From: Leeuwenhoekiella sp.
GTDB taxonomy: Bacteria; Bacteroidota; Bacteroidia; Flavobacteriales; Flavobacteriaceae
DNA: 64,000 nt
Assembly: GCA_002708845.1 (NCBI GenBank)
Contig: PAPI01000027.1
Location: 62,001-126,000 of the forward strand
Direction: 5' to 3'
The position numbers were made by a program, and so were the translations under genes. Below, piece by piece: positions 2-57,256 of the stretch (the first letter of the stretch is position 1; every line of letters starts with the position of its first letter). The notes under the pieces were generated by a model. It did no database searches. It was not told where the DNA came from and saw only the letters and a program-made list of their open reading frames with translations.

Positions 2-493
2 TACAGTGCCTTTGAGGCCGGTACCCGCGTACCCACAATTGTTTACTGGGAAGGAAAGGCTATCCCAGGCGTGAATGAGGCGCTTATTAGTCAGGTAGAT
101 TTTTATGCTTCGTTAGCAAACCTTACCGCATCTCCGTTAAAAAAGGGGGAGGCCATTGATAGTAAGAATCTTTCTGATGTTTTACTGGGGAGATCAATTG
201 ACGGCAGGTCTGTTCTGGTTGAGGAATCTTTTACATTGGCGCTTCGTAATAAAAATTGGAAATTTATTGATGCTCTACCCAGAAAAAAAAACCTACCAAC
301 ATTTATAGCCCGAAAAGGTATTGAAGACGGAGCGAGTTATAAAATGCAATTGTACGATATTAATACCGACCCTTCAGAAAAAGTTAATGTAGCTCAAGAC
401 CATCCGGAGCTGGTAAATAGGTTTAAAAATCAACTCGATTCCATTCGAAATCTTAAATCGATTTTAGCAAGGAAGGTAGCATCCGACAGTTAA
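2..493 (+). CDS. Sulfatase, C-terminal part (5' end outside window)
   Basis: The open frame runs in from the left edge and ends at TAA 491-493. The first residues read YSAFEAGTRVP, the hallmark 'fEGGiRVP'-like segment that lies in the C-terminal half of S1 family sulfatases. It is followed by the typical tail (ISQVDFYASLANL, then LYDINTDPSEKVNVAQDHP). The catalytic CxPSR region lies outside the window, so activity cannot be judged. The closest relative inside the window is the sulfatase at 12371-13939, which has the same YSxFEAGTRVP block; the two look like paralogues. It lies upstream of the hybrid regulator on the same strand, so it is probably part of the same polysaccharide utilization locus. 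A GTG at 71 is internal, not the start. Confidence 0.9.
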   Translation, partial: YSAFEAGTRVPTIVYWEGKAIPGVNEALISQVDFYASLANLTASPLKKGEAIDSKNLSDVLLGRSIDGRSVLVEESFTLALRNKNWKFIDALPRKKNLPTFIARKGIEDGASYKMQLYDINTDPSEKVNVAQDHPELVNRFKNQLDSIRNLKSILARKVASDS

Positions 494-4665: not shown

Positions 4666-4794
4666 ACTGTAAAGTATTGATTTTATTGAGATTGATTGAT
4701 TTGTACCCTCTCTTGAATGATATGCCCTGCCTTCAAAATATGTTAATGGAGAGATTTGATGTCATAACTAACTCTTAAGATTTTTAACAAATTG

Positions 4795-7700
4795 ATGAGA
4801 TTCAAATTTAAGCTTATGAAGTCACGAAAAATTACTAAAAACAGAATGGTCAGTTCCAAATTACTGTTTTTGATTTTGCTGGGTTTTTTAGGAGTCCCCA
4901 ACCTAAGTCAGGCGATTGCACAGGAGCAATTGCGTGTGACGGGTACCATTACCTCAGAAGAAGATGGGATGCCTCTGCCTGGTGTTACAATTATTGACGC
5001 TAAAAATACGACTAATGGTGTCAGTACAGATTTTGATGGTAATTATGAAATCACGGTACCCTCAAACACGTCGCTTATCATAAGTTATGTGGGCTTTCAA
5101 ACGAAAACGATTGAGGTGTCCGGTCGTAACATGATTAATGTGACCTTATCTACCGATGTTGCTGCATTGGATGAGGTGGTAGTTGTGGGCTATGGCACAC
5201 AGAAAAAGGTAAACCTCACCGGCGCCGTAGAGACTGTAACCTTTGATGAGGCGGTAAACCAACCGGTAACTCAATCAGGTCAGCTGCTTTACGGAAGATT
5301 TTCGGGGGTGCAGCTCACGCAAACCTCAGGTAACCCGGGTGCAGACGCTTCTTCTATAAATATTAGGGGTATTGGAACCTTTGGGAATAGTACGCCTCTA
5401 ATAGTTATAGACAATATTCAATATGATAATCTTGCAGCTTTTAATAATCTTAACCCATCAGATATTGCAAGCGTTACAGTCTTAAAAGATGCTTCAGCCG
5501 CTGCAATTTATGGCGCTAGAGGTGCAAATGGGGTGGTTTTGGTGACTACAAAACGTGGGAAGGCAGATACCTTTGAGATTAGGTATAATGGGTATTATGG
5601 AATTCAGGAAGCCACCATTAAACCGGAATTTTTAGGTTCATTAGATTATGCAATTTTAATGAACGAGAAATATAGAAATCAGGATGGTCCCGGTTTTTTA
5701 CCACGCTATACTGATGAACAATTAGAGGCAATACGAACCGGGTCTTTACCAGATCAATTTTCGGAGACCAACTGGGCTGATGTAGTGTTAACTTCAGCAC
5801 CAATTATGAATCACAATTTCTCATTTTCCGGCGGTAGTGAAAAAACCACCTACCGGGTTTCATTTGGGTATCTGGGGCAGGAAGCTATAGTACGCAGTAA
5901 ATTTCGCAGTGACCGCTACAACCTGAGTCTGAATATCAACTCCAAGATGAAGGAGTGGTTTAGCATCAGTAGCGTTACAAATGCTTTCTGGAGACATAAT
6001 GAAGGCCCTACAGGCGGTCAGAACGCCTTGGATGGAGATAACGGTATTATTTATTCCTTCCAGCGTAGTGCACCTACCATTCCACTATATTATAGTAATG
6101 GGGAGTATGGTGTCGTTGATGGTGCATACCTGAATACAAATAATTCCTTTTTAACACAAAACCCGCTGCGAAGAGGCTTTTTAGGGAATAACGAAAGTGA
6201 TAATATAAATATAAGTCAGCGTATAGGGCTTACATTTCAATTTACCGATAACCTCTCGTTTGAAACCAGTGGAAGTGCCAATATTATTTATGGCCTATCA
6301 TCAAATTTCGCTCCTAGACAAACCGTAAATGACTGGGAAGGAAATGTAGTCATTAATAATGAATTGAATAATCTCAACAACTCTACAAACTTTGAATACC
6401 GACTTCTAAACGAAAATATTCTACGCTACGATAAGACATTTAATGAGGTGCATAACTTTGGAGTTTTACTAGGTCATTCTGTTTCCTATTTCAAAGATGA
6501 CGGCTTCTCAGGTCAATTGAGTGGTTTCCCAACTGATAATTTGGAGGAATTCAATGCGGGAGGTGTGGTTGACCCCGCTGTTTCCGGCAGCGCTCTTGAA
6601 GAGGTGTATCAATCCTTTTTTGGAAGAGTAAACTACAATTATAAAGGTAAATACCTGGCAGAATTCAATTTGAGAAGGGATGCCTCTTCAAAATTTGGCC
6701 GGGATTACCGTTACGGAACCTTTCCGTCAGGATCAGTCGGTTGGAGAGTATCTGAAGAAGCATTTATGGAGGATGTTGACTTCATTTCAAACCTGAAACT
6801 AAGAGGAAGTTGGGGTATAAGTGGTAATGACCGCATTGGTAATTACATTTTTTCTCAGACCTATAATCCAGGTATAGATTATGTTCTGGGTAATGATAAT
6901 ACGGTAGTTGGGGTGGCTATAACAAGTTTGGCAAACCCATCTATTAGATGGGAAGAAACCGAACAATACGATATAGGTATAGATTTAGGGCTGTTTAATA
7001 ACAGACTAGAGATTGTTTCTGATTATTTTAAAAGGAATAGTTCAGATATTCTCTACGGCAATTTCCCCATACCCAACACCCTGGGAATTACAAATCTAGC
7101 CGCTCAAAATGCTGCTTCGATGGTAAGTGAGGGAATTGAATTAAATCTTAACTACAGAAACAATATTGGCGGTGTTAAGTTTAGTGTAGGAGGAAACCTG
7201 ACCAAGTTTTTAAATAACGAGGTAACCGGCTTGGGTGACGGAGGAGAAGAAACCATCACTAACATCAATATCATTCGCGTAGGCGAGCCATTTAGAGCTT
7301 ATTATGGTTATCGGGCGATTGGAGTTTTTCAGAGTCTTGAAGAAATAGCAGATGCTCCTGTTCAATTCAATAATGCACTTACAGGGCCTGGAGATTTACG
7401 TTACGCAGATATTTCGGGACCCGATGGAGTTCCTGATGGGGTAGTAGATGCTAATGACCGTACTATTATAGGAAATCCAAATCCAGATTTACTCATCAAT
7501 TTTAATGCTTCTGTGGAATATGGAGGCTTCGATTTTAATATACTTTTTCAGGGAGTGAATGGTGTAGACAGGCTTTTACAAGGAAATGGTAATTTACCTA
7601 TGGAAGACGATCGTAGTAATGTTTTAACCTACTGGTTAGGACGATGGACCCCTGAAAATCCAAGCGCTAACTTACCACGCGTGGGAGGCCAGAATAACGG

Positions 7701-7953
7701 CATCGTATCTTCATTTTACATTCAAGATGCCTCTTACCTAAGACTAAAGAATATCGAATTGGGATATTCATTACCCAACTCTTTAACTAAAAGAATTCTT
7801 ATAGATGATCTCCGCTTCTTTGTAGGGGGACAAAACCTCATAACCTTTACCGGTCTTGAATATTTTGATCCCGAAGGAGCAAATGGTGCTCAAAGCAATA
7901 GAAACGTACCGCTTTACAAAACATTTACGTTCGGCGTTAATTTAAAATTATAA
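4795..7953 (+). CDS. SusC-like TonB-dependent outer membrane transporter
   Basis: About 1050 residues. A signal peptide (hydrophobic LLFLILLGFLGVPNLSQAIAQ) is followed by a carboxypeptidase D regulatory-like domain (GTITSEEDGMPLPGVTI to YVGFQTKTIEV). Then come the SusC family linker LDEVVVVGYGTQKK, the plug (VTVLKDASAAAIYGARGANG) and a large beta-barrel ending in FTFGVNLKL. SusC proteins import oligosaccharides through the outer membrane using TonB energy, with SusD as the lid. The start is ambiguous: ATG 4795 is chosen, and ATG 4816 or 4846 would still leave a signal peptide. The gene follows the HTCS after about 130 bp and precedes susD by 5 bp, so the two are co-transcribed. Confidence 0.96.
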   Translation: MRFKFKLMKSRKITKNRMVSSKLLFLILLGFLGVPNLSQAIAQEQLRVTGTITSEEDGMPLPGVTIIDAKNTTNGVSTDFDGNYEITVPSNTSLIISYVGFQTKTIEVSGRNMINVTLSTDVAALDEVVVVGYGTQKKVNLTGAVETVTFDEAVNQPVTQSGQLLYGRFSGVQLTQTSGNPGADASSINIRGIGTFGNSTPLIVIDNIQYDNLAAFNNLNPSDIASVTVLKDASAAAIYGARGANGVVLVTTKRGKADTFEIRYNGYYGIQEATIKPEFLGSLDYAILMNEKYRNQDGPGFLPRYTDEQLEAIRTGSLPDQFSETNWADVVLTSAPIMNHNFSFSGGSEKTTYRVSFGYLGQEAIVRSKFRSDRYNLSLNINSKMKEWFSISSVTNAFWRHNEGPTGGQNALDGDNGIIYSFQRSAPTIPLYYSNGEYGVVDGAYLNTNNSFLTQNPLRRGFLGNNESDNINISQRIGLTFQFTDNLSFETSGSANIIYGLSSNFAPRQTVNDWEGNVVINNELNNLNNSTNFEYRLLNENILRYDKTFNEVHNFGVLLGHSVSYFKDDGFSGQLSGFPTDNLEEFNAGGVVDPAVSGSALEEVYQSFFGRVNYNYKGKYLAEFNLRRDASSKFGRDYRYGTFPSGSVGWRVSEEAFMEDVDFISNLKLRGSWGISGNDRIGNYIFSQTYNPGIDYVLGNDNTVVGVAITSLANPSIRWEETEQYDIGIDLGLFNNRLEIVSDYFKRNSSDILYGNFPIPNTLGITNLAAQNAASMVSEGIELNLNYRNNIGGVKFSVGGNLTKFLNNEVTGLGDGGEETITNINIIRVGEPFRAYYGYRAIGVFQSLEEIADAPVQFNNALTGPGDLRYADISGPDGVPDGVVDANDRTIIGNPNPDLLINFNASVEYGGFDFNILFQGVNGVDRLLQGNGNLPMEDDRSNVLTYWLGRWTPENPSANLPRVGGQNNGIVSSFYIQDASYLRLKNIELGYSLPNSLTKRILIDDLRFFVGGQNLITFTGLEYFDPEGANGAQSNRNVPLYKTFTFGVNLKL

Positions 7954-7958
7954 CAGCG

Positions 7959-9506
7959 ATGAAAAAGATATTTATAGCATTTATTATAGTTCTCACGACT
8001 ACAAATTGCAGTCAGGATTACCTCCAGCGAGAGTCCCTCACTCAAATAGCCGAAGGTAACTTCTGGCAATCTGAAGCCGATGCTTTCTTGGCACTCAACG
8101 CAGTATATTCAACGCTTCAGTCCAGATCCTTATATGGCGGTAATTTAAATGGATTTCAGGGTATACCTGGCTATGACGGTATTGGGGATAATGCATATAC
8201 GCAATTTGAATACGAGGGCCCCGCCTTATTTATGGAAGGAACACTAGACCCTACTCACGGAATGATACTTAACCTGTGGAATAACAGCTATCAGGGAATT
8301 GCACGAGTAAACTCGGTAATACAAAATGTGGAAATCATTTCTGAAGATTTGGTTCCAGCAGAAACCAAAGAAGGTTTGTTAGGGCAGGCTTATTTTCTAA
8401 GAGCACTATTTTACTTTAATCTCGCTGTCTACTTTGAAGATGTTCCATTGATTACAGCTCCACAAACCTTAGAAGACGCCTATGTTTCAAAAAGCACTTT
8501 TGAAGAAGTAACTGCTCAAATAGTAGAAGATCTTAAACTGGCAGTTAAATATCTTCCGGAGGCTCAGCCTTCAGGACTAGAAGGCTATGCGACTAAAGGT
8601 GCTGCATTAGGCTTATTTTCACGAGTGCAATTATACAATAAAGTATATGAAGGTCCTCTGGGTGTAATTGAGTTGACAGACCAGCTTTTAGGTCTCAATT
8701 ACGACTTACACCCGAATTACGGAGCGCTTTTCACCCCGGAAAATGAACTATCTCAGGAAGTTGTTTTTGCTGTGCGGTTTTTGAGAGGAGATGACACCTC
8801 AAATGGGGAGATTTTTAGCGCCACTTTTGAAGGTACACCTAAAGTAGATCAACGGCCTATGCCAAATTTAGTAAACGATTACTACTGTACAGATGGTCAA
8901 CCTATTTCCACCTCACCTTTATACAGCTCAGCAAACCCAAAGAATAACAGAGATCCGAGAGCTTTAGCAAGTATCTATTTTAGAGGGGATCAGTTTTTAG
9001 ATAGCCCTGCCCGCACATTTACAGGAAATAGTCCCACAGGTTATGGTATGCGTAAGTATATAAGACGTGGTCCTGACGCTGAAGGCAATGCGGTTTTTGG
9101 TGAGGGTTCACAGGATTTCTACGTCATTCGCTTTGCCGATGTGCTGCTTATGCGAGCGGAAGCTTTAGCAGAAACCGGAGATATTGACGGTGCAGCAGCA
9201 CTGGTTGACCGGGTTAGGGCACGTGTAAATATGCCCAGCGTAGCAGATGCAGAAGGTACCGTAAATCAAGCCCAAATAATAGAGATTGTTAGACATGAGC
9301 GCAGAGTAGAATTGGCTCTAGAAGGCCTGCGTTTTATAGATCTTAAGCGGTGGGGAGAAATTGAAGGTGGTATTCAGCGGGCAAGTTCAGATCCTGTAGG
9401 GCCATATGCACCGCAATACTTGGGAAGACGATCAGAGGTATTCCCTATACCACAAACTGAAGTTGATGTAAATAAAAATTTAGTGCAAAATCCTGCATGG
9501 CAATAA
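7959..9506 (+). CDS. SusD-like glycan-binding outer membrane lipoprotein
   Basis: This 515-residue protein starts with a lipoprotein signal peptide with lipobox TTTNC (Cys19 region), so it should be lipid-anchored at the cell surface. The N-terminal half (RESLTQIAEGNFWQSEADAF; GQAYFLRALFYFNLAVYFEDVP) is the SusD-like TPR scaffold. The C-terminal half carries the RagB/SusD signature (YVIRFADVLLMRAEALAETG, ERRVELALEGLRFIDLKRWG) and the usual ending FPIPQTEVDVNKNLVQNP. It binds glycan and closes over the SusC barrel. It lies 5 bp after susC and 17 bp before the glycosidase gene, so it belongs to the operon core. Confidence 0.96.
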   Translation: MKKIFIAFIIVLTTTNCSQDYLQRESLTQIAEGNFWQSEADAFLALNAVYSTLQSRSLYGGNLNGFQGIPGYDGIGDNAYTQFEYEGPALFMEGTLDPTHGMILNLWNNSYQGIARVNSVIQNVEIISEDLVPAETKEGLLGQAYFLRALFYFNLAVYFEDVPLITAPQTLEDAYVSKSTFEEVTAQIVEDLKLAVKYLPEAQPSGLEGYATKGAALGLFSRVQLYNKVYEGPLGVIELTDQLLGLNYDLHPNYGALFTPENELSQEVVFAVRFLRGDDTSNGEIFSATFEGTPKVDQRPMPNLVNDYYCTDGQPISTSPLYSSANPKNNRDPRALASIYFRGDQFLDSPARTFTGNSPTGYGMRKYIRRGPDAEGNAVFGEGSQDFYVIRFADVLLMRAEALAETGDIDGAAALVDRVRARVNMPSVADAEGTVNQAQIIEIVRHERRVELALEGLRFIDLKRWGEIEGGIQRASSDPVGPYAPQYLGRRSEVFPIPQTEVDVNKNLVQNPAWQ

Positions 9507-9523
9507 CATAAAATCTAATAGTT

Positions 9524-10852
9524 ATGAAAAATTATTTAGCAATACTAATAGCAACCGTTTTACTGGTTAGTTGTGAACCAAATGTAATTGGAGATTTTGG
9601 AGATTCAGCAACTGCAGCTCAAGAAACCGATGCGTCTTTAATTACTAAAAAAGGAGTAGCTTATACTAACAGAGCAAAAGCCTGGTCGCATAGAACCAGT
9701 GAGTTAGGAGCGCACTGGATGTATAGCTGGGGTAACGAGTTACGCGAGGAAATACCTGATAATGTAGAGTATGTACCTATGTTTTGGGGGAAAGGCTCTG
9801 TAACTGATGACAATATATCTCGTATTAAAGGCTTGATCGCAGAAGGCAAGGTAAAGTATGTTTTAGGATTTAATGAGCCTGATGGTGCTGATCAGGCAAA
9901 TATGAGTGTTGATGAAGCCATCGCCTTATGGCCCAAAATTGAAGAACTTGGAGTTCCCATCGGATCACCGGCAACAGTAAATCCTGAAAATGCGTGGATG
10001 GTAGAGTTTATGCAAAAAGCCGAAGCCGCAAATTTAAGGGTAGATTTTATTACCGTTCATTCCTATGGGGGTTCTAATGTCCTGAACTTTATTAATAAAT
10101 TGAAAAATACCTACAATGCATACGGTAAGCGACCCATTTGGATTACCGAATTTGCCGTGGCAGACTGGAATGCTACTTCCCCTGAAACAAACCGCTACAG
10201 TCAGGAAGAAGTCATATCATTTATGCAGCAAGCCACACAGGCCATGAACAATATTGAATGGGTGCATCGCTATGCCTGGTTTGATGGTAGACAAGCTCCG
10301 CTTTATTCTTCATCGCTTTTTGATGAAGATTCAAATATTACAACCGTTGGTCAGGTTTATGCAGCCATCAATCGCAATGAAAACATTGGTTCGGGTCAAG
10401 ATACCGAGTACACCCCACCGTTAGACGAAAAAGAATTAATGATTAATGGAGGCTTTGAAAGTGGTGAGATCACTCCTTGGGCTGGTTTTAAGAATGGAAT
10501 CGTTGGAACTGAGGCAGGACCTAGAACAGGTAACTTTGCCGGCAGAATTGAAAATGGAGATGGTTCTCTACTCTATGTTGCAGCTGCTGAACCTGGTAAA
10601 ACCTATATACTCAAATTTTGGACCAAATGGCTTTCAGAACCTGCAAATACCATTTCAGCCAAAATACGAAACGATGCAGGCAATGCCTTGCTATTTTCTG
10701 CACCTGACCTTGCAAAATCTACTGAGTGGACTGAGACTTCGTATGAATTTACAGTACCCGAAGGAGTCACTGCACTACGGTTTGTACTCTTCAAGGCAAA
10801 TGGCTTTCCTCCCTTATTTTTAGATGACGTTTCTTTTAAACTAAAAGAATAA
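9524..10852 (+). CDS. GH128-like glycoside hydrolase lipoprotein with C-terminal carbohydrate-binding domain
   Basis: This 442-residue protein has lipobox LLVSC at Cys17. Residues about 40-280 match the glycosyl hydrolase catalytic-core (Asl1/GH128-type) fold. KYVLGFNEPD carries the presumed acid/base Glu118, and PIWITEFAVADW the presumed nucleophile Glu209, in the spacing expected of a TIM barrel of this clan; aromatic motifs such as WMYSWGNE and WVHRYAWF also fit. Residues about 300-442 (INGGFESGEITPWAG to PLFLDDVSFKLKE) form a CBM4/9-like jelly roll. Characterised GH128 enzymes cleave beta-1,3-glucans. Here the enzyme sits with sulfatases, so the true substrate may be another, sulfated glycan. 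Family assignment is by motif only. Confidence 0.8.
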   Translation: MKNYLAILIATVLLVSCEPNVIGDFGDSATAAQETDASLITKKGVAYTNRAKAWSHRTSELGAHWMYSWGNELREEIPDNVEYVPMFWGKGSVTDDNISRIKGLIAEGKVKYVLGFNEPDGADQANMSVDEAIALWPKIEELGVPIGSPATVNPENAWMVEFMQKAEAANLRVDFITVHSYGGSNVLNFINKLKNTYNAYGKRPIWITEFAVADWNATSPETNRYSQEEVISFMQQATQAMNNIEWVHRYAWFDGRQAPLYSSSLFDEDSNITTVGQVYAAINRNENIGSGQDTEYTPPLDEKELMINGGFESGEITPWAGFKNGIVGTEAGPRTGNFAGRIENGDGSLLYVAAAEPGKTYILKFWTKWLSEPANTISAKIRNDAGNALLFSAPDLAKSTEWTETSYEFTVPEGVTALRFVLFKANGFPPLFLDDVSFKLKE

Positions 10853-10920
10853 ATCAGATCCAAAGGATTTTACTTAAGGTAGAAGCCTTTTTTAATCCGT
10901 TTTAAATGCTTCGTTAGTAT

Positions 10921-12351
10921 ATGCGTAAATCATTCTTTTTTTTAAGTCTAACTGCTTTAGGTCTGTTGCTTTTTACACCTAAACTGATTGCTCAGGATGC
11001 TGAATCTCACTTATTAAAAACGCAGCCTAATATCATCATCATTCTAGCTGATGATTTAGGTTATGCAGATGTGGGTTTTAATGGCAGTACAGATATCCCT
11101 ACACCACATATTGACCGTATAGCAAAAGAAGGTGTACAGTTTACTAATGCCTATGTAAGTTATGCGGTTTGTGGCCCTAGTCGTGCCGGTATTTTAACCG
11201 GTAGGTATCAGGATCGCTTTGGCTTTAGTAGAAACCCATTACTGGCGCCTAATGATTCCACTATGGGTTTGCCATTGAGTGAAGAAACTTTAGCCGATGC
11301 TCTGGGTAGGGCGGGTTACAAATCGATCGCCCTTGGAAAATGGCATATGGGTGCACACGAATCGCTGGTACCCCGCAAAAGAGGTTTTACTGATTTTTTT
11401 GGGTTTTTAAGCGGAGGACATCAATACCTTCCAGAGTTGTGGACGCTTAATGATCTTACTGAGGCCCGTAAACAGTATGATGGATATAATACTAAACTAT
11501 TGCGCAATGAAACCCGTGTTGAAGAAACCGAATATCTTACCGATGCCCTTTCGCGCGAAGCGGTAAATTATATTCAGCACTATAAGGATGCTCCCTTCTT
11601 TATGTATCTCGCATATAATGCACCGCACGCTCCATTACAGGCGACTTCGGAGTATCTGGAACGTTTTGATCAGATCAAAGACCCTAAACGCAAAATTTAT
11701 GCGGCCATGGTAAGCGCAATGGATGATGGCGTGGGCCGCGTTTTGCAAGCTTTAGATTCGCTGAAAATTGCAGACCATACCCTCGTTTTTTTCCTTTCAG
11801 ATAATGGCGGTCCAGAGAACGCTAATGCTTCAGATAACGGCTTATTGAGAGGAGAGAAAGGAGATTTATTTGAAGGTGGAATTCGTGTGCCCTTTGCCCT
11901 GCGCTGGCCGGCTCGCCTTCAAAGTGGAAAAATTTACGAGAAGGCTATAAGTGCTTTAGATATTTTCGCTACGGCAATAAATCAAACCTCAGAAAGAATT
12001 CAAACTAAAAATGAACTTGACGGAGTAGATTTAATACCTTTTTTAACGGAGGAAAATTATGGGGATCCACACCCTTATTTATTTTGGAGGAAATTTGATC
12101 AGGAGGAGTATGCTGTGCGAGCTGCTGACGGTTTGAAGTTTGAGATTCAGAAAGACAAATCCTATCTCTTCGATCTTCAAATTGATTTGGGAGAAACCAC
12201 TTCCATTTTAGAGAAGCGTAATGAAGATTCCCGCTCACTAAAAGAACAGTTCAGCATCTGGAATATGAAGATGAAAGATCCTGCCTTTTTGGGCCTTTTA
12301 CAGGATAAGTTGTATAGCAAACAAAATCCTAACCGGTTCACAACGAATTAA
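10921..12351 (+). CDS. Secreted Cys-type S1 sulfatase
   Basis: This 476-residue protein has an N-terminal signal peptide ending near KLIAQ. It carries the metal-binding start IILADDLGYADVG and the sulfatase signature CGPSRAGILTGR, with Cys84 as the residue converted to formylglycine. Further landmarks are ALGKWHMGAHE, FMYLAYNAPHAPLQA, VFFLSDNGGPEN and EGGIRVPFALRWP. It should remove sulfate esters from glycan fragments in the periplasm after conversion of Cys84 by an FGE or anaerobic maturase. It lies 68 bp after the glycosidase gene and 19 bp before the next sulfatase. The exact S1 subfamily cannot be fixed by eye. Confidence 0.94.
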   Translation: MRKSFFFLSLTALGLLLFTPKLIAQDAESHLLKTQPNIIIILADDLGYADVGFNGSTDIPTPHIDRIAKEGVQFTNAYVSYAVCGPSRAGILTGRYQDRFGFSRNPLLAPNDSTMGLPLSEETLADALGRAGYKSIALGKWHMGAHESLVPRKRGFTDFFGFLSGGHQYLPELWTLNDLTEARKQYDGYNTKLLRNETRVEETEYLTDALSREAVNYIQHYKDAPFFMYLAYNAPHAPLQATSEYLERFDQIKDPKRKIYAAMVSAMDDGVGRVLQALDSLKIADHTLVFFLSDNGGPENANASDNGLLRGEKGDLFEGGIRVPFALRWPARLQSGKIYEKAISALDIFATAINQTSERIQTKNELDGVDLIPFLTEENYGDPHPYLFWRKFDQEEYAVRAADGLKFEIQKDKSYLFDLQIDLGETTSILEKRNEDSRSLKEQFSIWNMKMKDPAFLGLLQDKLYSKQNPNRFTTN

Positions 12352-12370
12352 TAAGATATATTTATTGACT

Positions 12371-13939
12371 ATGAGAATATCAAAATACCCTCTATTTTAT
12401 CTGTCAGCCTTTTTTGTAACACTAACTTTCTTCGGTTGTAAAAATGAAGATAAAAAGCATGAAGTAATGCCGGAAACGGCTGCCAAACCCAATATTGTCA
12501 TCATTTATGCAGATGATTTGGGTTACGGGGATCTTAGTTCTTATGGGGCCAAAGCTCTTCATACTCCTAATATGGATAGATTGGTGAATGGTGGTGTTAA
12601 GTTTACTAATGGCTATGCGTCTTCAGCAACCTGCTCACCAAGTCGTTTTGCCCTGTTGACAGGAATGTATCCCTGGCGAAATGCCAATGCTAAAATTCTT
12701 CCTGGAACTGCTCCTTTACTTATTGATACCACTCAAATGACACTGCCCAAAATTTTGAAGGAGCAGGGCTATCAAACCGGCATTGTAGGGAAGTGGCATT
12801 TGGGATTGGGTAACGGTAATGTTGATTGGAATGGAAAAATAAATCCCGGGCCTAATGAAGTAGGTTTTGACTACAGCTATATCATGGCTGCTACACAGGA
12901 CCGGGTTCCCACTGTTTACATCAAAAATGGAAGGGTAGAAAACCTCGACCCTAATGATCCTATTCAGGTTGATTATGAAAAAAACTTTGAGGGAGAACCC
13001 ACCGGCCTTGACAATCCGGAACTGTTGAAGATGAAATGGCATCATGGCCATAATAACTCTATAGTCAATGGAATTCCTCGCATCGGTTTTATGAAAGGCG
13101 GTGAGCAGGCAAAATGGATAGATGAGCAAATGGCTGAAAATTTCTTATCGAAAGCTCAGAGCTATGTAAAATCTAACAAAGAAAAGCCCTTCTTCTTATA
13201 CTACGCGCTACAGCAACCTCACGTACCCAGGACTCCAGCTCCTGAATTTGCAGGCAAGTCAGGGTTGGGACCCCGGGGAGATGTAATTCTGGAAGCCGAC
13301 TGGTGTGTTGGCGAATTTCTCAAGACGTTAGAAGAAGAAAGACTTTTAGAAAATACACTCATTATTTTGAGCAGCGATAATGGCCCCGTTTTAAATGACG
13401 GGTATTATGATGATGCGGTAGAAAAGTTAGGCGACCATAGGCCTGCAGGTGTTTTGCGCGGCGGTAAATACAGCCTGTTTGAAGCCGGTACACGTGTGCC
13501 GTTTGCGACCTACTGGCAGGGGAAAATTAAGCCTCAAACCAGTGATGCCGTAGTTTCACAGATAGATTTGTTGAGTTCGCTTGCAGATCTGGTGGGCAGT
13601 ATGATTGAGGGAGAAGATAGTCAGGATTTATTGAAGACTTTTTTAGGCGAAAGTCAGAAAGGCAGAGACAATCTTATTCTGGAGGCAACAGGCCGCACCG
13701 CATTAAGATCAGGTGATTGGATATTTATTCCTCCCTATAATGGATCCTCGATTGCTCAGGAAGTAAATATTGAGTTAGGTAATGCTAAACAATATCAATT
13801 GTATAACCTGTCTGAGGATGAAGGGCAGCAAATAAATTTAGCTGAAAGCAATCCTCAAAAGCTGGAAGAGTTGAAAGCGATTCATGAGAGCATACGTGGT
13901 AAAACGACGACTGAAATAGAAGAATTGGAGTTAAAATAA
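12371..13939 (+). CDS. Cys-type S1 sulfatase lipoprotein
   Basis: About 522 residues from ATG 12371; a TTG six bases earlier is in frame but less likely. The signal peptide ends in a lipobox (TFFGC, Cys23), so this sulfatase is probably membrane-anchored, unlike its two neighbours. Catalytic features: IIYADDLGYGDL, then CSPSRFALLTG with the formylglycine precursor Cys88, GIVGKWHLGLG, FFLYYALQQPHVPR, LIILSSDNGPVL and FEAGTRVPFATYW. The last block is shared with the partial sulfatase at the left edge. It lies between two other sulfatases in the same transcription unit. Its length is normal for the family. Confidence 0.94.
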   Translation: MRISKYPLFYLSAFFVTLTFFGCKNEDKKHEVMPETAAKPNIVIIYADDLGYGDLSSYGAKALHTPNMDRLVNGGVKFTNGYASSATCSPSRFALLTGMYPWRNANAKILPGTAPLLIDTTQMTLPKILKEQGYQTGIVGKWHLGLGNGNVDWNGKINPGPNEVGFDYSYIMAATQDRVPTVYIKNGRVENLDPNDPIQVDYEKNFEGEPTGLDNPELLKMKWHHGHNNSIVNGIPRIGFMKGGEQAKWIDEQMAENFLSKAQSYVKSNKEKPFFLYYALQQPHVPRTPAPEFAGKSGLGPRGDVILEADWCVGEFLKTLEEERLLENTLIILSSDNGPVLNDGYYDDAVEKLGDHRPAGVLRGGKYSLFEAGTRVPFATYWQGKIKPQTSDAVVSQIDLLSSLADLVGSMIEGEDSQDLLKTFLGESQKGRDNLILEATGRTALRSGDWIFIPPYNGSSIAQEVNIELGNAKQYQLYNLSEDEGQQINLAESNPQKLEELKAIHESIRGKTTTEIEELELK

Positions 13940-13956
13940 TTAGTTTACACTTACAG

Positions 13957-16044
13957 ATGAAATACGTTCCCAATCTGTATTTTTTAGTTTTGGTTATTCT
14001 TTTTAGCCAAACAATTTATGGTCAGCCAAAGGCCGAAAAACCAAATATCTTATTCATTCTTGTTGATGATTTAGGTTATGGGGATGTCGGAGTTTTTTTT
14101 CAAAATGAACGGAGGAAAAGAGGAGACGATTCAGAACCTTGGATGGCAACACCTCATTTAGACCAAATGGCTTACGAAGGTGCAATGCTTACCAATCACT
14201 ATGTGCCTGCACCGGTTTGTGCGCCATCTCGAGCTTCTCTTCTTAGTGGTTTAAGTCAGGGGCACGCCAATGTCAGAGATAATCAGTTTGATAAGGCACT
14301 GGCCAATAATCATACTTTAGGAAGCGTCTTACGGCAGGCGGGATATGCTACCGCATTAATTGGGAAATACGGGTTGCAAGGCAGCGCTAAATGGTCTGAA
14401 AATGGAGATGCCTGGCCTGCACAGCCCTTAAGAAGAGGCTTTGATTATTTTTATGGGTATATGCGCCACGGCGATGGTCATGAACATTATCCCAACGAAG
14501 GTATTTACAGAGGCCCTAAAACCGTTTATGAAAATACAACAGCAATCAAAACCGGTCTTGATAAATCCTATACTACTGACCTATGGACCGCAAGGGCTAA
14601 AAAATGGATTACAGAGCAGGTGAAGGAGGATGACAAACCCTTTTTTATGTTTTTGTCTTACGACACGCCGCATGCAGTACTTGAATTACCCACTCAAAAA
14701 TATCCTGAAGGAGGTGGACTTGAGGGCGGTTTACAATGGCTGGGCAAAGCGGGTAAAATGATTAATACTGCAAGTGGCACTCCAGATTCGTATATGCACC
14801 CTGACTATAAAAGCGCTACTTACGATAATGATAAGAATAAAGACACTCCTGAAGTAGCCTGGCCTGAAACATATAAGCGTTATGCTACAAGTGTCCGTCG
14901 AATAGACGATGCTGTTGGAGATATCTTCAAACTCTTAGAAGACCTCAATATTGACGAAAATACATTGGTTGTTTTTGCTTCAGACAATGGTCCTTCAAAA
15001 GAATCCTATTTGCCAAAAGGGTATGTTGAAAATACTCCAGATTTCTTTAATAGTTTTGGTCCTTTTGATGGGATTAAACGCGATGTACTTGAAGGAGGCC
15101 TTCGAACACCATTAATTGTTAGATGGCCAGCTAAGGTTGCTAGAAATAGAGTAGTAGAATCACCAAGTATATTTTACGATTGGCTACCTACCTTTACTGA
15201 GGCTGCAGGCTTGATTCCGCCTGCAAATACAGATGGCACTTCACTTATTCCGGCATTAACAGGTTTGGGAAAACAGCAGGAAAGTATAGTTTATGTTGAA
15301 TATTTTCAGGGAGGGATCACTCCGGGATACAAAGAATTTGCAAAAAAGAATCAGAACCGACAGCGCGGCCAAATGCAAATGATACGAAAAGGCAGTTATG
15401 TCGGCTTGCGTTATGACATTCAATCTGCCGATGATGATTTTGAGATTTATAACATTTCAAAAGATAAACAGGAAGAATACAATTTAGCAGAAGTTGAAAC
15501 TTTACGGGAGCTTCAGCAACTTATGAAAGACGAGGTATTGCAATTACGAATGCCGGATACATCTGCCATCAGACCTTATGATGATACACCAATCCCTTCT
15601 GTAAAAGATTTGGACGTATCTAAGGGTTATACTCTTAAACAATTTGAAGGATTGTTTCCCTGGCTTCCCAAATTGGATCTTATGAGACCAGTATCGGAAA
15701 GGAAATTAACAGATGTTAATGAGATGCGCAATTTGGAAGACGGTTTATACCTAATTGAGGCATTTATTCAAGTACCTGAGGATGGAATTTACGTTTTTAA
15801 ATTTACTGCTAAAGATAAAGGACTCGTTAGGCTACACAACGCACTTCTTTATGATGCAGATTATAAGTACAAGACGAATAAAACTCTAGAAAAATCAGTT
15901 CATCTTAAGAAGGGACTACATCCGATTAAAATCTATTTTACTAAATGTAAGGGTGCAGGAGTCCCATATGAATTTAAATGGACGAATGGTAATATTAGAA
16001 AGGAAGATTATAATAATAACATTCTTTATAATAAGCGAATATAA
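13957..16044 (+). CDS. Cys-type S1 sulfatase with extra C-terminal PA14-like domain
   Basis: This 695-residue protein has a signal peptide ending near TIYGQ. The sulfatase domain covers about residues 28-530: FILVDDLGYGDVG, CAPSRASLLSG with Cys88, FFMFLSYDTPHAVLEL, VVFASDNGPSKES and LEGGLRTPLIVRWP. In place of the common GKWH motif it reads LIGKYGLQG, so one usual substrate or metal-side residue differs. Beyond residue 590 there is an additional domain (LYLIEAFIQVPEDGIYVFKF to GVPYEFKWTNG) resembling PA14-type or chitobiase-like beta domains that often bind sugars. It lies 17 bp after the preceding sulfatase, and 125 AT-rich bases separate it from the FGE gene. Confidence 0.92.
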   Translation: MKYVPNLYFLVLVILFSQTIYGQPKAEKPNILFILVDDLGYGDVGVFFQNERRKRGDDSEPWMATPHLDQMAYEGAMLTNHYVPAPVCAPSRASLLSGLSQGHANVRDNQFDKALANNHTLGSVLRQAGYATALIGKYGLQGSAKWSENGDAWPAQPLRRGFDYFYGYMRHGDGHEHYPNEGIYRGPKTVYENTTAIKTGLDKSYTTDLWTARAKKWITEQVKEDDKPFFMFLSYDTPHAVLELPTQKYPEGGGLEGGLQWLGKAGKMINTASGTPDSYMHPDYKSATYDNDKNKDTPEVAWPETYKRYATSVRRIDDAVGDIFKLLEDLNIDENTLVVFASDNGPSKESYLPKGYVENTPDFFNSFGPFDGIKRDVLEGGLRTPLIVRWPAKVARNRVVESPSIFYDWLPTFTEAAGLIPPANTDGTSLIPALTGLGKQQESIVYVEYFQGGITPGYKEFAKKNQNRQRGQMQMIRKGSYVGLRYDIQSADDDFEIYNISKDKQEEYNLAEVETLRELQQLMKDEVLQLRMPDTSAIRPYDDTPIPSVKDLDVSKGYTLKQFEGLFPWLPKLDLMRPVSERKLTDVNEMRNLEDGLYLIEAFIQVPEDGIYVFKFTAKDKGLVRLHNALLYDADYKYKTNKTLEKSVHLKKGLHPIKIYFTKCKGAGVPYEFKWTNGNIRKEDYNNNILYNKRI

Positions 16045-16169: not shown

Positions 16170-17306
16170 ATGAAATTAAAGAATGCATTTGGATTAAAAC
16201 ACTTTATTATAGTCCTATTGCTTTTAGCCGGATCATGTAAGGATAAATCTATCAAGACGAACGAAGTTCCACACGAAATTAAACTGGAACATGCAAAAGA
16301 ACTAAGTGTAGAACAACCTGGAGATATTAAAACACCTGAGGGTATGGTTTGGGTTTCGGGGGTTCGCTTTACACAAGGTGCACTGGAAGGTGATGCATCA
16401 GCCTTACCTCGGGAAAAACCTGAGCATCCCGTTGCAGTTGATGGGTTTTTTATTGATAAGACTGAAGTAACCAATGCTCAGTTCAAGGCTTTTACAGAAG
16501 CGTCTGGATACATCACAGTTGCAGAGCGCCCTGTAGATTGGGAAGAAATGAAAAAAGACTTACCTCCCGCAACGCCAAAACCGGCCGACAGCATGCTGCA
16601 ACCTGGATCTTTAATATTTAACAGAAAGGCTGAAGGAGTAACCGATTTACGAAATTATGCGCAATGGTGGGAGTGGAAAAGCGGAGCAAACTGGAAGCAT
16701 CCACAGGGGCCAGAATCAACAATTGAAGGATAAGATGATTATCCTGTGGTTCACGTTGCTTATGAAGATGCACTGGCCTATTGTGAGTGGGCCAATCGTA
16801 AACTCCCTACCGAAGCGCAATGGGAGGCAGCGGCTCTTGGTAAAATGCACGGGGGAATCTATACTTGGGGAGATGATGAGGGCGAGCTAACTAAAAAGGC
16901 CAATACCTGGCAGGGAGATTTTCCCAACAAAAATCAAGCAGAAGATGGTTTTTCCTATATAGCTCCAGTAGGTGCTTTCGAACCCAACTCGCTTGGCATT
17001 TATGATATGGCAGGAAATGTCTGGGAGCTCACACAAGATTGGTTTTCTGTAAATTATTACGAGAGCCTTGTGGGTAACGAAGTGCGAAATCCAAAAGGCC
17101 CGGCACAGTCCCATAATCCCGTAAATCCGTATCAACAGGAAAAGGTTATTAAAGGAGGCTCGTTTTTATGTGATAAATCCTATTGTGCCAGTTATCGCAT
17201 TTCTGCAAGAATGGGGCAAACCCTTGATTCTTCTTCAGATCATACAGGTTTTAGAACCGTTGCTATGGTCGAAGATTTAAAAAACAGACCGAATAAAGGC
17301 GAGTAG
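16170..17306 (+). pseudogene. Formylglycine-generating enzyme (SUMF1/FGE) lipoprotein gene interrupted by an in-frame TAA
   Basis: The frame opens at ATG 16170 with a lipoprotein signal (LLLAGSC, Cys23) and FGE residues GMVWVSGVRFTQG and IDKTEVTNAQFKAFTEASGY. It reaches GPESTIEG and then meets TAA at 16731-16733 (codon 188). The same frame continues immediately (DDYPVVHVAYEDALAYCEWA, LPTEAQWEAAA, IYDMAGNVWELTQDWF) to a normal stop at 17306. The ending GGSFLCDKSYCASYRISARM retains both cysteines (334 and 339 counting through the stop) that match the catalytic pair of aerobic FGE. Relatives usually read GPxSxIEGK/R-xHPVVHV here, so one A-to-T change in a Lys codon would explain the stop. FGE oxidises the sulfatase Cys to formylglycine. 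Readthrough, restart at GTG 16746 or a base-call error are alternatives. Confidence 0.88.
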
Positions 17307-18077: not shown

Positions 18078-18365
18078 ATGGGAACTTTAAGAAACCATGT
18101 ACAGTTAATCGGAAATGTTGGTCAGGAGCCAACAATCACCAATCTGGAAAGCGGCCGCAAAGTCGCACGCTTTTCTCTCGCCACCAATGAATTTTATAAG
18201 AAGGATAAAGGCGAAAAAGTACAGACTACCGAGTGGCACACCGTTGTCGCCTGGGGCAAAACGGCAGACCTCATTGAAAACTACGTGACCAAAGGCAAAG
18301 AACTGGCCTTAAGCGGAAAACTCAAATACGAATTTAGTTCAAGACCTGATGCAATTCTACGGTAG
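18078..18365 (+). pseudogene. ssb: Single-stranded DNA-binding protein, C-terminally truncated by deletion
   Basis: The first 84 or so residues are a clear OB-fold SSB: NHVQLIGNVGQEPTITNLES, ARFSLATNEFY, TEWHTVVAWGKTADLIENYV, KGKELALSGKLKYE. After KLKYE the sequence switches to nine unrelated residues and a stop, because the frame enters the body of the next gene. The missing part would be the final beta strands (usually ...YITEIVxNELLLL) and the acidic tail, so single-stranded DNA binding is probably lost. SSB paralogues of this kind are normal cargo of flavobacterial plasmids and integrative elements. The chromosomal ssb must be elsewhere. Confidence 0.85.
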
Positions 18366-18693
18366 CGAAGTAGTCTATACCTTACCCTTGTTTAATTACA
18401 AGTATACCGAAGGGATACACTTTTTGGCGGAGCAGGCTACCTGTTACTGGATGCTTACCGATATCGGAGCCGTGGTAAGACGCCTTCGAGCCAAACACGG
18501 ATTTATTGTGGTTCTTTTCAAACGCTATAACGAAGCCGAACAACAACGGACCCATCACGAGGCTGTTATCAACTATGGTGACGGAAACGGAATTACTCTT
18601 TTTGAGCAGCAGTACACCATCACCGATTTTCCCTTAGATGAACTGCACCTGTTTTTTGTAGACGATACCCTGATGTTACCGAATGAATACTAA
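18331..18693 (+). pseudogene. DUF6876-type protein, N-terminally truncated and fused out of frame to ssb
   Basis: The frame reads LVQDLMQFYGSEVVYTLP, then FNYKYTEGIHFLAEQATCYW, MLTDIGAVVRRL, and ends LHLFFVDDTLMLPNEY. I recognise this as the DUF6876 family carried by Bacteroidota mobile elements; its function is unknown. The coding sequence is open upstream of ATG 18349 to about 18330, but the expected N-terminal 15 or so residues are replaced by ssb sequence in another frame. Translation could begin at ATG 18349 and yield 114 residues, so a near-complete product is possible. The stop overlaps the start of the RadC-like gene by 11 bp. Confidence 0.7.
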
Positions 18694-19153
18694 GTCGATT
18701 GCTATGGAGACACAACTCAACGAAATCAAGCTTCGGTATTCCACCAGACAGAAAGCAGCAGATTGGATTAAAATCAGTTCTTCTGCCAATGCTGCCGAGG
18801 CGATTTTTAAGAACTGGGATAAAGACCATATCGCCACTTTTGAATGCTTCAAAATTGTATTGCTCAACAACAGCAACCAGATCAAAGGGGTATTTCAGGT
18901 TTCTCAGGGGGGGATTACCGGAACGGTTGTAGATGTTCGGTTAATATTTGCCGTTGCTTTAAAATCACTGACGGTGGGGATGATCTTAACTCACAACCAC
19001 CCCAGCGGAACTTTAAAGCCCAGTGAAGCCGATAAGAGCATCACCCGTAAGATCAAAAGTGCAGGAGCGATTCTGGACATCAAAGTTCTAGATCACATCA
19101 TTTTAACGCCAACAGGTCAATACTTCAGTTTTGCAGATGAAGGACTGCTTTAA
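18683..19153 (+). CDS. RadC-like JAB/MPN domain protein of the mobile element
   Basis: This 156-residue protein is the C-terminal JAB (MPN+) domain found in short RadC-like proteins. VVDVRLIFAVALKSLTVGMI is followed by LTHNHPSGTLKPSEAD, which supplies the H-x-H...S...D zinc ligands of the JAMM motif, and then DIKVLDHIILTPTGQYFSFADEGLL. It lacks the N-terminal helix-hairpin-helix domain of chromosomal RadC. The family is common next to ssb and DUF6876 in integrative elements; its role, possibly peptidase or nuclease-related anti-defence, is not settled. ATG 18683 overlaps the upstream frame, and ATG 18704 is an alternative start. Confidence 0.88.
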   Translation: MNTKSIAMETQLNEIKLRYSTRQKAADWIKISSSANAAEAIFKNWDKDHIATFECFKIVLLNNSNQIKGVFQVSQGGITGTVVDVRLIFAVALKSLTVGMILTHNHPSGTLKPSEADKSITRKIKSAGAILDIKVLDHIILTPTGQYFSFADEGLL

Positions 19154-19429: not shown

Positions 19430-19878
19430 ATTTTAAAAATAACGTATCTTTAAAATGCTGAAAAACAGCACACATTTTTAAAGTAGGGGTATCCAATTTT
19501 TTGACTTTCGCTGATAAACCTACCCGGCAAATACTAACATATCGGAAATTTTTCCCGATAAAAAGCAATGGGTTCAGATGATAATCTGGTAATCAAATTG
19601 TAGGGATTTTTGTTCGCCTGCGGCGAACGAAAAGGAATAGCAAGAGGGTAACACGCTGCGCGATGTTACGTATTCCTTTTCGTTTTCAACGTATTGAAAA
19701 TCAACGCTTTAAAATGCAATTAATATGTTGATTTTCAATAATTTGCGACAAATGCCCAGAAAGCGCCCATTTTTCGGGAAGGATTTGCGACAAAGCATCA
19801 GAATGACGAACCAATCAGGTTATTGAGAGTGAGTGATTAATCAAAGTAATTTTTAATGTTATTAAAAGGTACAATACT
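19430..19878. repeat. Palindrome- and repeat-rich intergenic control segment
   Basis: No gene is seen. Nested structures cover 19612-19794: a 7-bp hairpin GTTCGCC/GGCGAAC (19612-19618 and 19622-19628); a perfect 14-bp inverted repeat AACGAAAAGGAATA (19626-19639) with 19671-19684; a second perfect 14-bp pair TATTGAAAATCAAC (19692-19705) with 19727-19740; and the 12-bp direct repeat ATTTGCGACAAA at 19741-19752 and 19783-19794. This sits just upstream of the helix-turn-helix-type gene of the element, as expected for an operator, replication origin or transfer origin. Which of these it is cannot be told from sequence alone. Confidence 0.7.
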
Positions 19879-20544
19879 GTGGAGAAAGTGAATTACATTA
19901 CGCATCTCAATATCGTATTTGAGCAATTCAATATGGATGACCGTATCAAGCAAGGTCACATCACATTATATCTGGCGTTCTTTCAAAAATGGAATCGGAA
20001 GTTTTTTAAAAAAACCATAACCATAAATAGAGAAAGGATTATGGAGAGAGCAAAATTCAAATCTAAAACAACCTATCATAGCTATATAAAAGACCTTAAT
20101 GACTGGGGCTACTTAAGATACTTTCCATCATATAGTCCTGCAAAGGGTTCAAAAGTACAGATGACCATTTTTTTTGCCTTAGATGGTCAGAAATTGGTTA
20201 ACAGCGTCCCGGAACAAGGCCAAAATTTGGTACATTATAAAAAACATAAAACAACAGAGAAATTATATAAACTGACAAGGCCAAAAAATGAACAAGTTGT
20301 TTTAGAATTTTTTGAAGAAAATAAGTGGCCAGCGTTTGAAGGAAAAAAATTCTATGCGTATTACAAAGCTAGAAACTGGGAACTTAGTAGAGGTCTCAAA
20401 ATTAAAAACTGGAAGACAGCTGCGACTAATTACATTGATAAAGGCCTCAACATAAAGGAGGAAAAAGCTTTTACAGATTCTGGACTGGAAGATAATTTAA
20501 GAAAATACGATAATAAAAATAAAGATTATACGATACCTCTATAA
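19879..20544 (+). CDS. Element-encoded winged-helix/replication-type regulator next to integrase
   Basis: This 221-residue protein reads NYITHLNIVFEQFNMDDRIK, HITLYLAFFQKWNRKFF and then FKSKTTYHSYIKDLNDWGYL, a helix-turn-helix-like core. I have seen this pattern repeatedly beside tyrosine integrases in flavobacterial integrative elements, where it is annotated as a transcriptional regulator or replication-initiator-like protein. The second half is Lys-rich and variable. The start is GTG 19879, the only plausible start before the conserved NYITHLN block. It converges with the integrase gene, with 7 bp between stops. The palindromes just upstream are probable binding sites. Confidence 0.7.
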   Translation: MEKVNYITHLNIVFEQFNMDDRIKQGHITLYLAFFQKWNRKFFKKTITINRERIMERAKFKSKTTYHSYIKDLNDWGYLRYFPSYSPAKGSKVQMTIFFALDGQKLVNSVPEQGQNLVHYKKHKTTEKLYKLTRPKNEQVVLEFFEENKWPAFEGKKFYAYYKARNWELSRGLKIKNWKTAATNYIDKGLNIKEEKAFTDSGLEDNLRKYDNKNKDYTIPL

Positions 20545-20551
20545 ATCACAA

Positions 20552-21760
20552 CTAAAATTTATTTCTCAGAATTGCCATATCCCTACTCACTTTCATATCT
20601 AAAATCTTTGCATAATGCTGAGTCGTTTTAAGATTAGTATGACCAAGCATTTTGCTTACAGATTCAATGGGGACACCATTAGTGAGGGTAACCGTAGTTG
20701 CGAACGTGTGGCGCGCCAAATGAAAAGTTAGATTTTTTGTTATCCCAGCTAATGTCGCGATCTCCTTGATGTACGCATTCATTTTTTGATTACTTAAAAC
20801 GGGGAGCACAAGATCTTTTTCTTTCAACAGCTCGTTGTCTTTGTTCTTATCAATAATCGTTTTGGCAATAGGTAAAATTGGGATATTACTTCTGGTATCG
20901 GTTTTAGAACGTTTTGTCTTGATCCATTCCTCACCATCTGCACCAACACTAATATCACTTCTATTTAATTTTTTAACATCGGCGTAGGCTAGACCCGTAA
21001 AACAGCAAAAGATGAAAATATCGCGGACCTGATTAAGCCGTTCCATTTTCAAATCAAGATTAATGATTTTTTGAATTTCATCTTCAGTTAAAAATTCACG
21101 TTCTACAATTTTGAGCTTCGCTTTCCAGTGTAAAAAAGGGTCTTTGTCAATCCAATCATTAGCATGTGCAATGCGAATGATCTTTTTAAAATTGGTGATA
21201 TATTTAACGGCTGAGTTGTGCGCACATTTACGTGTGGTTTTCAGATAGTATTCAAGACCCGTTATGAATTTATGATCTACTTCCTGAACGGGAATATCAT
21301 TTCTCTTATATTTCTGTTTTATGAAAGCCTCCACATGTTTTTTACAGGTGCGATAGCGCTCTGCAGTTCCTGCGGCAAAATCTTTACCTATGAGACTTTC
21401 TACCTTGTCATTGTGCTCCTGGAAGATCTCGAGCAACATTTTTTGTGTTTTGTCCTTACCTAAGTACGCATCTCGAAGATTCAAAGCAGTATAAGATTTT
21501 CCTTCACGCTGAAACTGATGCTGAATAGCATATATTTTGTCTGTAATTATACTTATTTCTCTATTAATTTCTTGTGAGTTTTGAGAATTACCTAAAGCCC
21601 GTTGAGTTTTGGAATGCCAATCGTCAACTTTGACTTTTCTATGAATACTGCATTCAGCCCTCCGGCCATCGAGCGTAATACGAAGGTAAATAACAGCTTT
21701 GCCGTATTCATCGGCTTTACTTTTTTTAATGTAGAACAGAAGAGAAAGAGAATGTGACAC
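20552..21760 (-). CDS. Tyrosine recombinase/integrase of the tRNA-Ser element
   Basis: This 402-residue protein has three parts: an arm-type DNA-binding domain (LSLLFYIKKSKADEYGKAVI), a SAM-like core-binding domain (about 105-205) and the catalytic domain. The catalytic residues are HLARHTFAT (His347, Arg350), LGHTNLKTTQHY (His374) and nucleophile Tyr383. The position of the first catalytic arginine reads TGLAYADV (Ala258), a feature shared with IntDOT-like integrases of Bacteroidota. The start is GTG 21760, supported by the conserved N-terminal motif and an upstream in-frame stop. It lies 240 bp from the 3' end of tRNA-Ser, the classic position for integration into a tRNA gene. Confidence 0.93.
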   Translation of the reverse strand: MSHSLSLLFYIKKSKADEYGKAVIYLRITLDGRRAECSIHRKVKVDDWHSKTQRALGNSQNSQEINREISIITDKIYAIQHQFQREGKSYTALNLRDAYLGKDKTQKMLLEIFQEHNDKVESLIGKDFAAGTAERYRTCKKHVEAFIKQKYKRNDIPVQEVDHKFITGLEYYLKTTRKCAHNSAVKYITNFKKIIRIAHANDWIDKDPFLHWKAKLKIVEREFLTEDEIQKIINLDLKMERLNQVRDIFIFCCFTGLAYADVKKLNRSDISVGADGEEWIKTKRSKTDTRSNIPILPIAKTIIDKNKDNELLKEKDLVLPVLSNQKMNAYIKEIATLAGITKNLTFHLARHTFATTVTLTNGVPIESVSKMLGHTNLKTTQHYAKILDMKVSRDMAILRNKF

Positions 21761-21977: not shown

Positions 21978-22000
21978 ATTGCCTATTTTAGGGCTTTCCG

Positions 22001-22085
22001 CGGAGAAAGAGGGATTCGAACCCCCGGAGGTGTGACCCTCAACAGTTTTCAAGACTGCCGCATTCGACCACTCTGCCATTTCTCC
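22001..22085 (-). tRNA. tRNA-Ser (anticodon TGA)
   Basis: On the minus strand the 85-nt sequence starts GGAGAAATGGCAGAGTGG and ends with the T-loop GGTTCGAATCC, the acceptor complement TTTCTCC and a G discriminator. The anticodon loop reads CTTGAAA, giving TGA, and the long variable arm (GAGGGTCACACCTC) identifies a class II serine tRNA. No CCA is encoded. The 3' half is the likely attachment site of the neighbouring integrase. Confidence 0.95.
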
Positions 22086-56925: not shown

Positions 56926-57256
56926 AATCAAAATGTATTCAACTGATTTGGGCTGCAATTTAACTCTAAAATACAACAATCAATCTTAAGCAAAGTAAGG
57001 GTGCTATTTGAAAATGAAACGCCGATTTTAGCAGTGCTTTACCCTAATTTCTAATCATTAGGTGAACATGGCAACGCTTTATCCCAACTTAGACAACTCT
57101 TTAAAGCTATCGAATTGTGAAACAACGAGAATATAGGTCATTTGTAGATGTTACGGGTTAATAATCAGAAATAAAAATTACCTTCGAATACTAATGCAGT
57201 GAACTTGTTTTTAAGGTTTACGCTCCCCCCTGATCATAGTGCTAATACCAGATTTT

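Follow-up and report, generated by a model that had tools for sequence, protein, structure and literature searches.

A probably redundant and recently interrupted FGE gene between a sulfatase locus and an integrative element remnant in Leeuwenhoekiella

The gene for a sulfatase-activating formylglycine-generating enzyme (FGE) in the analysed stretch of Leeuwenhoekiella DNA (64,000 nucleotides, hereafter the window) was read as a recently inactivated, redundant second copy carried as cargo of a mobile element, with a probability of roughly three in four. On one side of the gene is a polysaccharide locus rich in sulfatases, and on the other what remains of an integrative (ICE/IME-type) element at a tRNA-Ser (Table 1). 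Observed directly were the stop codon, an intact second copy in the same genome, the adjoining element genes, the truncation of two of these, and a different lesion in a second copy of genome G001. From these we infer an order of events in which the island would have arrived with both its sulfatases and an activator of its own in a host already equipped with an FGE; the additional copy would have come under weaker selection, a nonsense mutation in it would have been tolerated, and the module of the element would be partly decaying too. The simplest account is a redundant gene in which a nonsense mutation was tolerated. The apparent paradox of many Cys-type sulfatases beside a dead activator is explained by this redundancy, and one locus read alone misleads on whether its sulfatases can mature.

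Table 1. Features around the interrupted FGE gene (window coordinates)
Feature	Position	Strand	Remark
SusC, SusD and glycoside hydrolase, same polysaccharide locus as the sulfatases	4792..10852	+	domain matches
Cys-type sulfatase (CGPSR)	10921..12351	+	domain match and motif
Cys-type sulfatase (CSPSR)	12365..13939	+	domain match and motif
Cys-type sulfatase with PA14 domain (CAPSR)	13957..16044	+	domain match and motif
FGE frame, first part	16170..16730	+	187 aa; lipoprotein-type signal (by eye) and start of FGE domain
In-frame TAA stop	16731..16733	+	sequence, translation
FGE frame, later part with both motif cysteines, then natural stop	16734..17306	+	190 aa
Truncated single-strand-binding protein (SSB) gene, element type	18078..18365	+	ends inside next frame
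DUF6876-like frame	18349..18693	+	without first residues of its G001 relative
RadC-like gene	18683..19153	+	domain complete
98-bp hairpin element, common to conjugation-type modules; candidate transfer origin	19596..19693	+	
221-aa protein without Pfam match	19879..20544	+	57% identical to protein beside G036 FGE
Tyrosine integrase	20552..21760	-	three domains matched
tRNA-Ser, likely integration site	22000..22085	-	

The interrupted frame (16170-17306) comprises 379 codons in translation up to the natural stop at 17304-17306. The TAA is its sole interruption, with no other stop or shift within the gene, which confirmed the claim of an earlier sequence-only reading that the frame runs unshifted across this codon. 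That reading had also taken both halves for FGE with a cysteine pair at the end, and profile searches against PF03781 (cut-off 23.3 bits) agreed: the first part matched positions 3-85 with 63.8 bits and the later part positions 90-254 with 163.3 bits, the two matches meeting within a few profile positions. Near the end, the later part carries the GGSxxCxxSYC motif as GGSFLCDKSYC, whose paired cysteines we take to be the catalytic pair of FGE. The motif in the first part that is presumably a lipoprotein-type signal was recognised by eye in the translation. In domain matches and two-cysteine motif the halves resemble FGE (SUMF1 family; PF03781); the window copy differs by its internal stop, which leaves it without one uninterrupted frame, and by standing beside an intact copy. 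The FGE-fold relatives GldK/PorK and EgtB gave weak profile matches to the window gene, and neither name fits because all scores were far under the curated cut-offs (GldK, 91.8 against 350 bits).

A functional stop, either by readthrough or through a split enzyme of two fragments with a restart at GTG 16746, is scarcely credible. The later half holds both cysteines and is conserved (0 of 106 invariant columns changed), but recency of the stop explains this conservation equally. GTG 16746 does start a frame of 186 aa, as had been claimed; its product would have neither the signal sequence nor the first third of the domain profile, which makes a split enzyme unlikely, and without the lipoprotein-type signal of the first part it would probably stay in the cytoplasm. 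Readthrough found no support, since TAA is the main stop in the window (20 of the 30 frames counted, chosen out of 47) and no examined relative has an internal stop there. Genome-wide recoding of TAA was rejected on the same count. The fragments of the window FGE would be inactive.

The genome was available as a draft assembly of 4.35 Mb in 39 contigs, the window being part of contig C27. A PF03781 search of the genome gave 8 places, among them an intact FGE of 374 aa on contig C18 (114059-115180). This copy is 88% identical to the window copy over the later half (DNA, 83.3% over 935 bases), matches solved FGE structures (e.g. 1y1e, E = 4.5e-62) and aligns at the two-cysteine motif. A further place (L003) looks like a GldK-type protein, and the remaining places are partial or weaker matches. 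The suspicion that the sulfatases had been left without an activator was not borne out: given the intact C18 FGE, those of the island can be independent of the broken gene if the C18 copy is expressed. This copy most likely activates the sulfatases of the island and may serve all those of the genome. The search proposed earlier for another activator in the rest of the genome succeeded for a second FGE and failed for an anaerobic maturase, as TIGR03942, the sole maturase model searched, had no match in the genome at E ≤ 0.001; an anaerobic maturase as substitute activator was therefore rejected. PMC6388578 states, citing others, that in Bacteroides thetaiotaomicron several sulfatases could be modified by one anaerobic maturase, and that Rhodopirellula baltica expressed only one of its six FGEs when grown on sulfated polysaccharides. 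As given there, both cases make a single working activator plausible here.

The four Cys-type sulfatases that had been noted around the FGE were found again, three of them complete and upstream with C-x-P-S-R motifs, the fourth being the first frame of the window (2-493), cut by its left edge and with its motif left of it (C27:61021-62127, L072). Across the genome, 16 PF00884 matches were obtained, 13 of which have the cysteine motif (12 C-x-P-S-R, one C-x-P-A-R). Elsewhere in the window (54883-56979), a PF00884-type protein of 698 aa lacks this motif and so is unlikely to be a sulfatase of the formylglycine kind. G003 and G004 share the core of the polysaccharide locus (window approximately 8660-15684) at 87% identity; both genomes carry the same locus without an adjoining FGE, and their only FGE (E < 1e-40) lies elsewhere.

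On the other side of the FGE, the integrase adjoins the tRNA-Ser, an arrangement by which ICE/IME elements are recognised. Just 85 of 112 residues are matched by the window SSB, and its gene and that of DUF6876 are truncated where they meet, with RadC and integrase seemingly complete. A scan of three frames between FGE and tRNA found neither relaxase nor coupling protein. The tRNA was the sole Rfam match at gathering score in the window. For the repeat at the tRNA-Ser end, no second copy was detected on C27:1-126000 within 5 mismatches in 22, nor in the genome within 3 mismatches in 33; the far border of the island was located neither by this repeat nor by the flanks of relatives. In G004, the match to the tRNA-Ser region of the window is on the same contig as the polysaccharide locus, and just beyond the last sulfatase 31 bases resemble the tRNA-Ser end at 93.5% identity. 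After this stretch come an integrase and an MmeI-type restriction-modification gene, accompanied by a helicase (L060 1-12092). This arrangement would fit the entry of another element at this tRNA site, which looks like an integration hotspot. According to PMC8845570, porphyran, agarose and lambda-carrageenan loci of gut Bacteroides are carried on integrative conjugative elements. The likeness to these is a polysaccharide locus adjoining an integrase and conjugation-type genes; here, in contrast, the host is a marine Leeuwenhoekiella, the module is partial and partly decayed, and the cargo includes an FGE.

The 98-bp hairpin element of the remnant, a candidate transfer origin, matched fully or partly in 42 of 60 loci examined, among the matches listed. 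These loci were 58 SSB loci together with L197 and L050, leaving out the window's own L162; L050 and L138 hold the same copy. In 29 aligned copies, 98.4% of the cells of the first stem (drawn by eye) were paired, with 44 double-changed cells against a shuffled mean of 17.6 (0 of 500 shuffles as high); pairs with a double change numbered 4, no more than in shuffles (487 of 500).

Within the genus, 15 FGE places (E < 1e-40) were counted in 13 genomes, with two copies only in the present genome (G000) and in G001, and both broken genes are the element-side copies of these two genomes. The G001 gene is broken by a frameshift, a lesion unlike that of the window, into frames of 155 and 216 aa; sulfatases precede it, and genes for SSB, DUF6876, DUF5712 and a coupling-type protein follow. 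The other G001 copy is open. An MtfA-type gene, the sole neighbour compared, is common to the intact FGEs of G000, G003 and G004. These observations bear on a base-call or assembly error, by which the gene would be intact in the living strain and which we consider unlikely. Such an error would agree with the single lesion, with the lack of an excess of damaged invariant residues and with the draft state of the assembly (39 contigs). It would leave aside the truncated element genes downstream, the raised omega on the window branch (see below) and the different lesion of G001, which has short A and T runs close by and could itself be an error. By hand calculation, two random lesions or errors among 15 places would fall on just these two copies about once in 105, a grouping chosen after the lesions were seen. 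The raised omega, the truncated element genes and the G001 lesion make a real lesion likelier.

In a sample of the family, 94 places matching the intact FGE were found in 91 of 199 genomes (the present one included), with two places each in three genomes (G000, G036, G081), that of the second G081 copy being at a contig end. Three of the 94 rows were flagged with a stop, the family and genus searches flagging stops and not frameshifts; since the stops in G172 and G102 are the natural protein ends, the window copy has the sole internal stop among the 94 places. Similarly, the flagged stops of L012, L024, L030, L032 and L033 are frame ends, as their frames are open for 266, 375, 366, 382 and 370 codons, respectively. 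The alignment with related FGEs that had been proposed as a check showed no relative with an internal stop at that column: all 29 other loci (L010-L038), the own intact copy included, are open across it, as judged for L025 from frame length and place and as seen for L037 in the codon alignment. The disabling lesion is therefore absent from relatives. No relative was found in viral contigs, and FGE-like places (E ≤ 1e-20) occurred in 280 of 72,556 plasmid records, all below 60% identity. Bacterial FGE pseudogenes or element-borne FGEs were not found in the titles and abstract openings of the open-licence literature.

A protein tree of 30 rows placed the window copy beside the intact G000, G003 and G004 genes (95/93). 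The broken copies of the window and G001 as sister genes were rejected, marginally and with one row partial, by the AU test (p 0.042); a sister relation between the window copy and the intact one of its own genome gave p 0.09. Codon models were fitted to 363 codons in 10 rows. Omega on the window branch was 0.17, compared with 0.07 for the rest of the tree (2dlnL 7.7); for the later half alone it was 0.14 against 0.044 (2dlnL 5.4), and the first half alone gave no clear difference (0.13 against 0.10; 2dlnL 0.4). The test is not specific, because a departure, here downwards, also appears with the own intact copy as foreground (omega 0.04, 2dlnL about 5.4). When the window branch was split, the best fit was at about 10% neutral, with lnL 3.3 above none and 5.7 above all neutral, and at 30% neutral the lnL was about 2 units below the best. 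These rates fit, weakly, constraint over most of the branch followed by a short neutral stretch.

An old pseudogene or long-neutral duplicate is very unlikely. For it speak the end branch of the window copy in the protein tree, longer than in its intact kin (0.24 against 0.12, 0.08 and 0.03 for G000, G003 and G004), and the later half alone, in which the best split-branch fit is 2.6 lnL above none and merely 2.1 above full neutrality; the frame otherwise open over 379 codons and the fully neutral fit to all codons speak against it. Private changes at otherwise invariant columns numbered 4 of 83 before the stop and 0 of 106 after it, against 1-5 of 84-88 and 0-5 of 106-111 in the nine other full rows. 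These counts are like those of intact copies, so that decay of the protein is not visible, and the gene shows no further stop or shift. The lesion data fit recent loss, with a base error nearly as good on the gene alone; recent loss was preferred because the surroundings tip the balance. Among the options offered earlier, recent inactivation is best supported, with the redundant intact FGE and the element-side setting in its favour. The lack of a second lesion, the complete RadC and integrase and the intact element-side copy of G036 count against it.

The biology of such a loss is ordinary, and the recurrent layout of an FGE next to a mobile module is the more interesting part. In G036, from another genus of the family, the second FGE is intact (352 aa). 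After it come a 132-aa frame that matches no Pfam family and is 73% identical to a frame of the G001 element, a relative of the window 221-aa protein (57%), an integrase (25% identical to that of the window) and a tRNA-Leu; 40 bases of the hairpin element match beside this FGE. Element genes are thus found beside all three second copies whose surroundings could be read (window, G001, G036), two of them broken and one intact. We tentatively suggest, at somewhat less than even odds, that in Flavobacteriaceae conjugative-type elements integrated at tRNA genes recurrently carry an FGE as cargo, at the point where cargo and transfer module meet. A sulfated-polysaccharide locus could then travel with its own activator, which would be dispensable and breakable in a host that holds an FGE. 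Against recurrent cargo, a scan of 10 frames around the G036 copy found no sulfatase (one sulfatase-like match lies beyond the integrase and tRNA), and an FGE within approximately 1.5 kb of an element-type SSB was seen at just 2 of 59 SSB loci among the matches listed (those of the window and G001); FGE as a standard part beside the SSB of such elements was rejected on this count. If this recurrence is real, the activator that travels with mobile sulfatase loci is disposable, and its state could indicate the time an island has spent in its host. Near this third element-side FGE, another broken gene was observed in G036, a GH106 rhamnosidase split into two frames (L197 5761-8979; profile 21-343 and 363-742).
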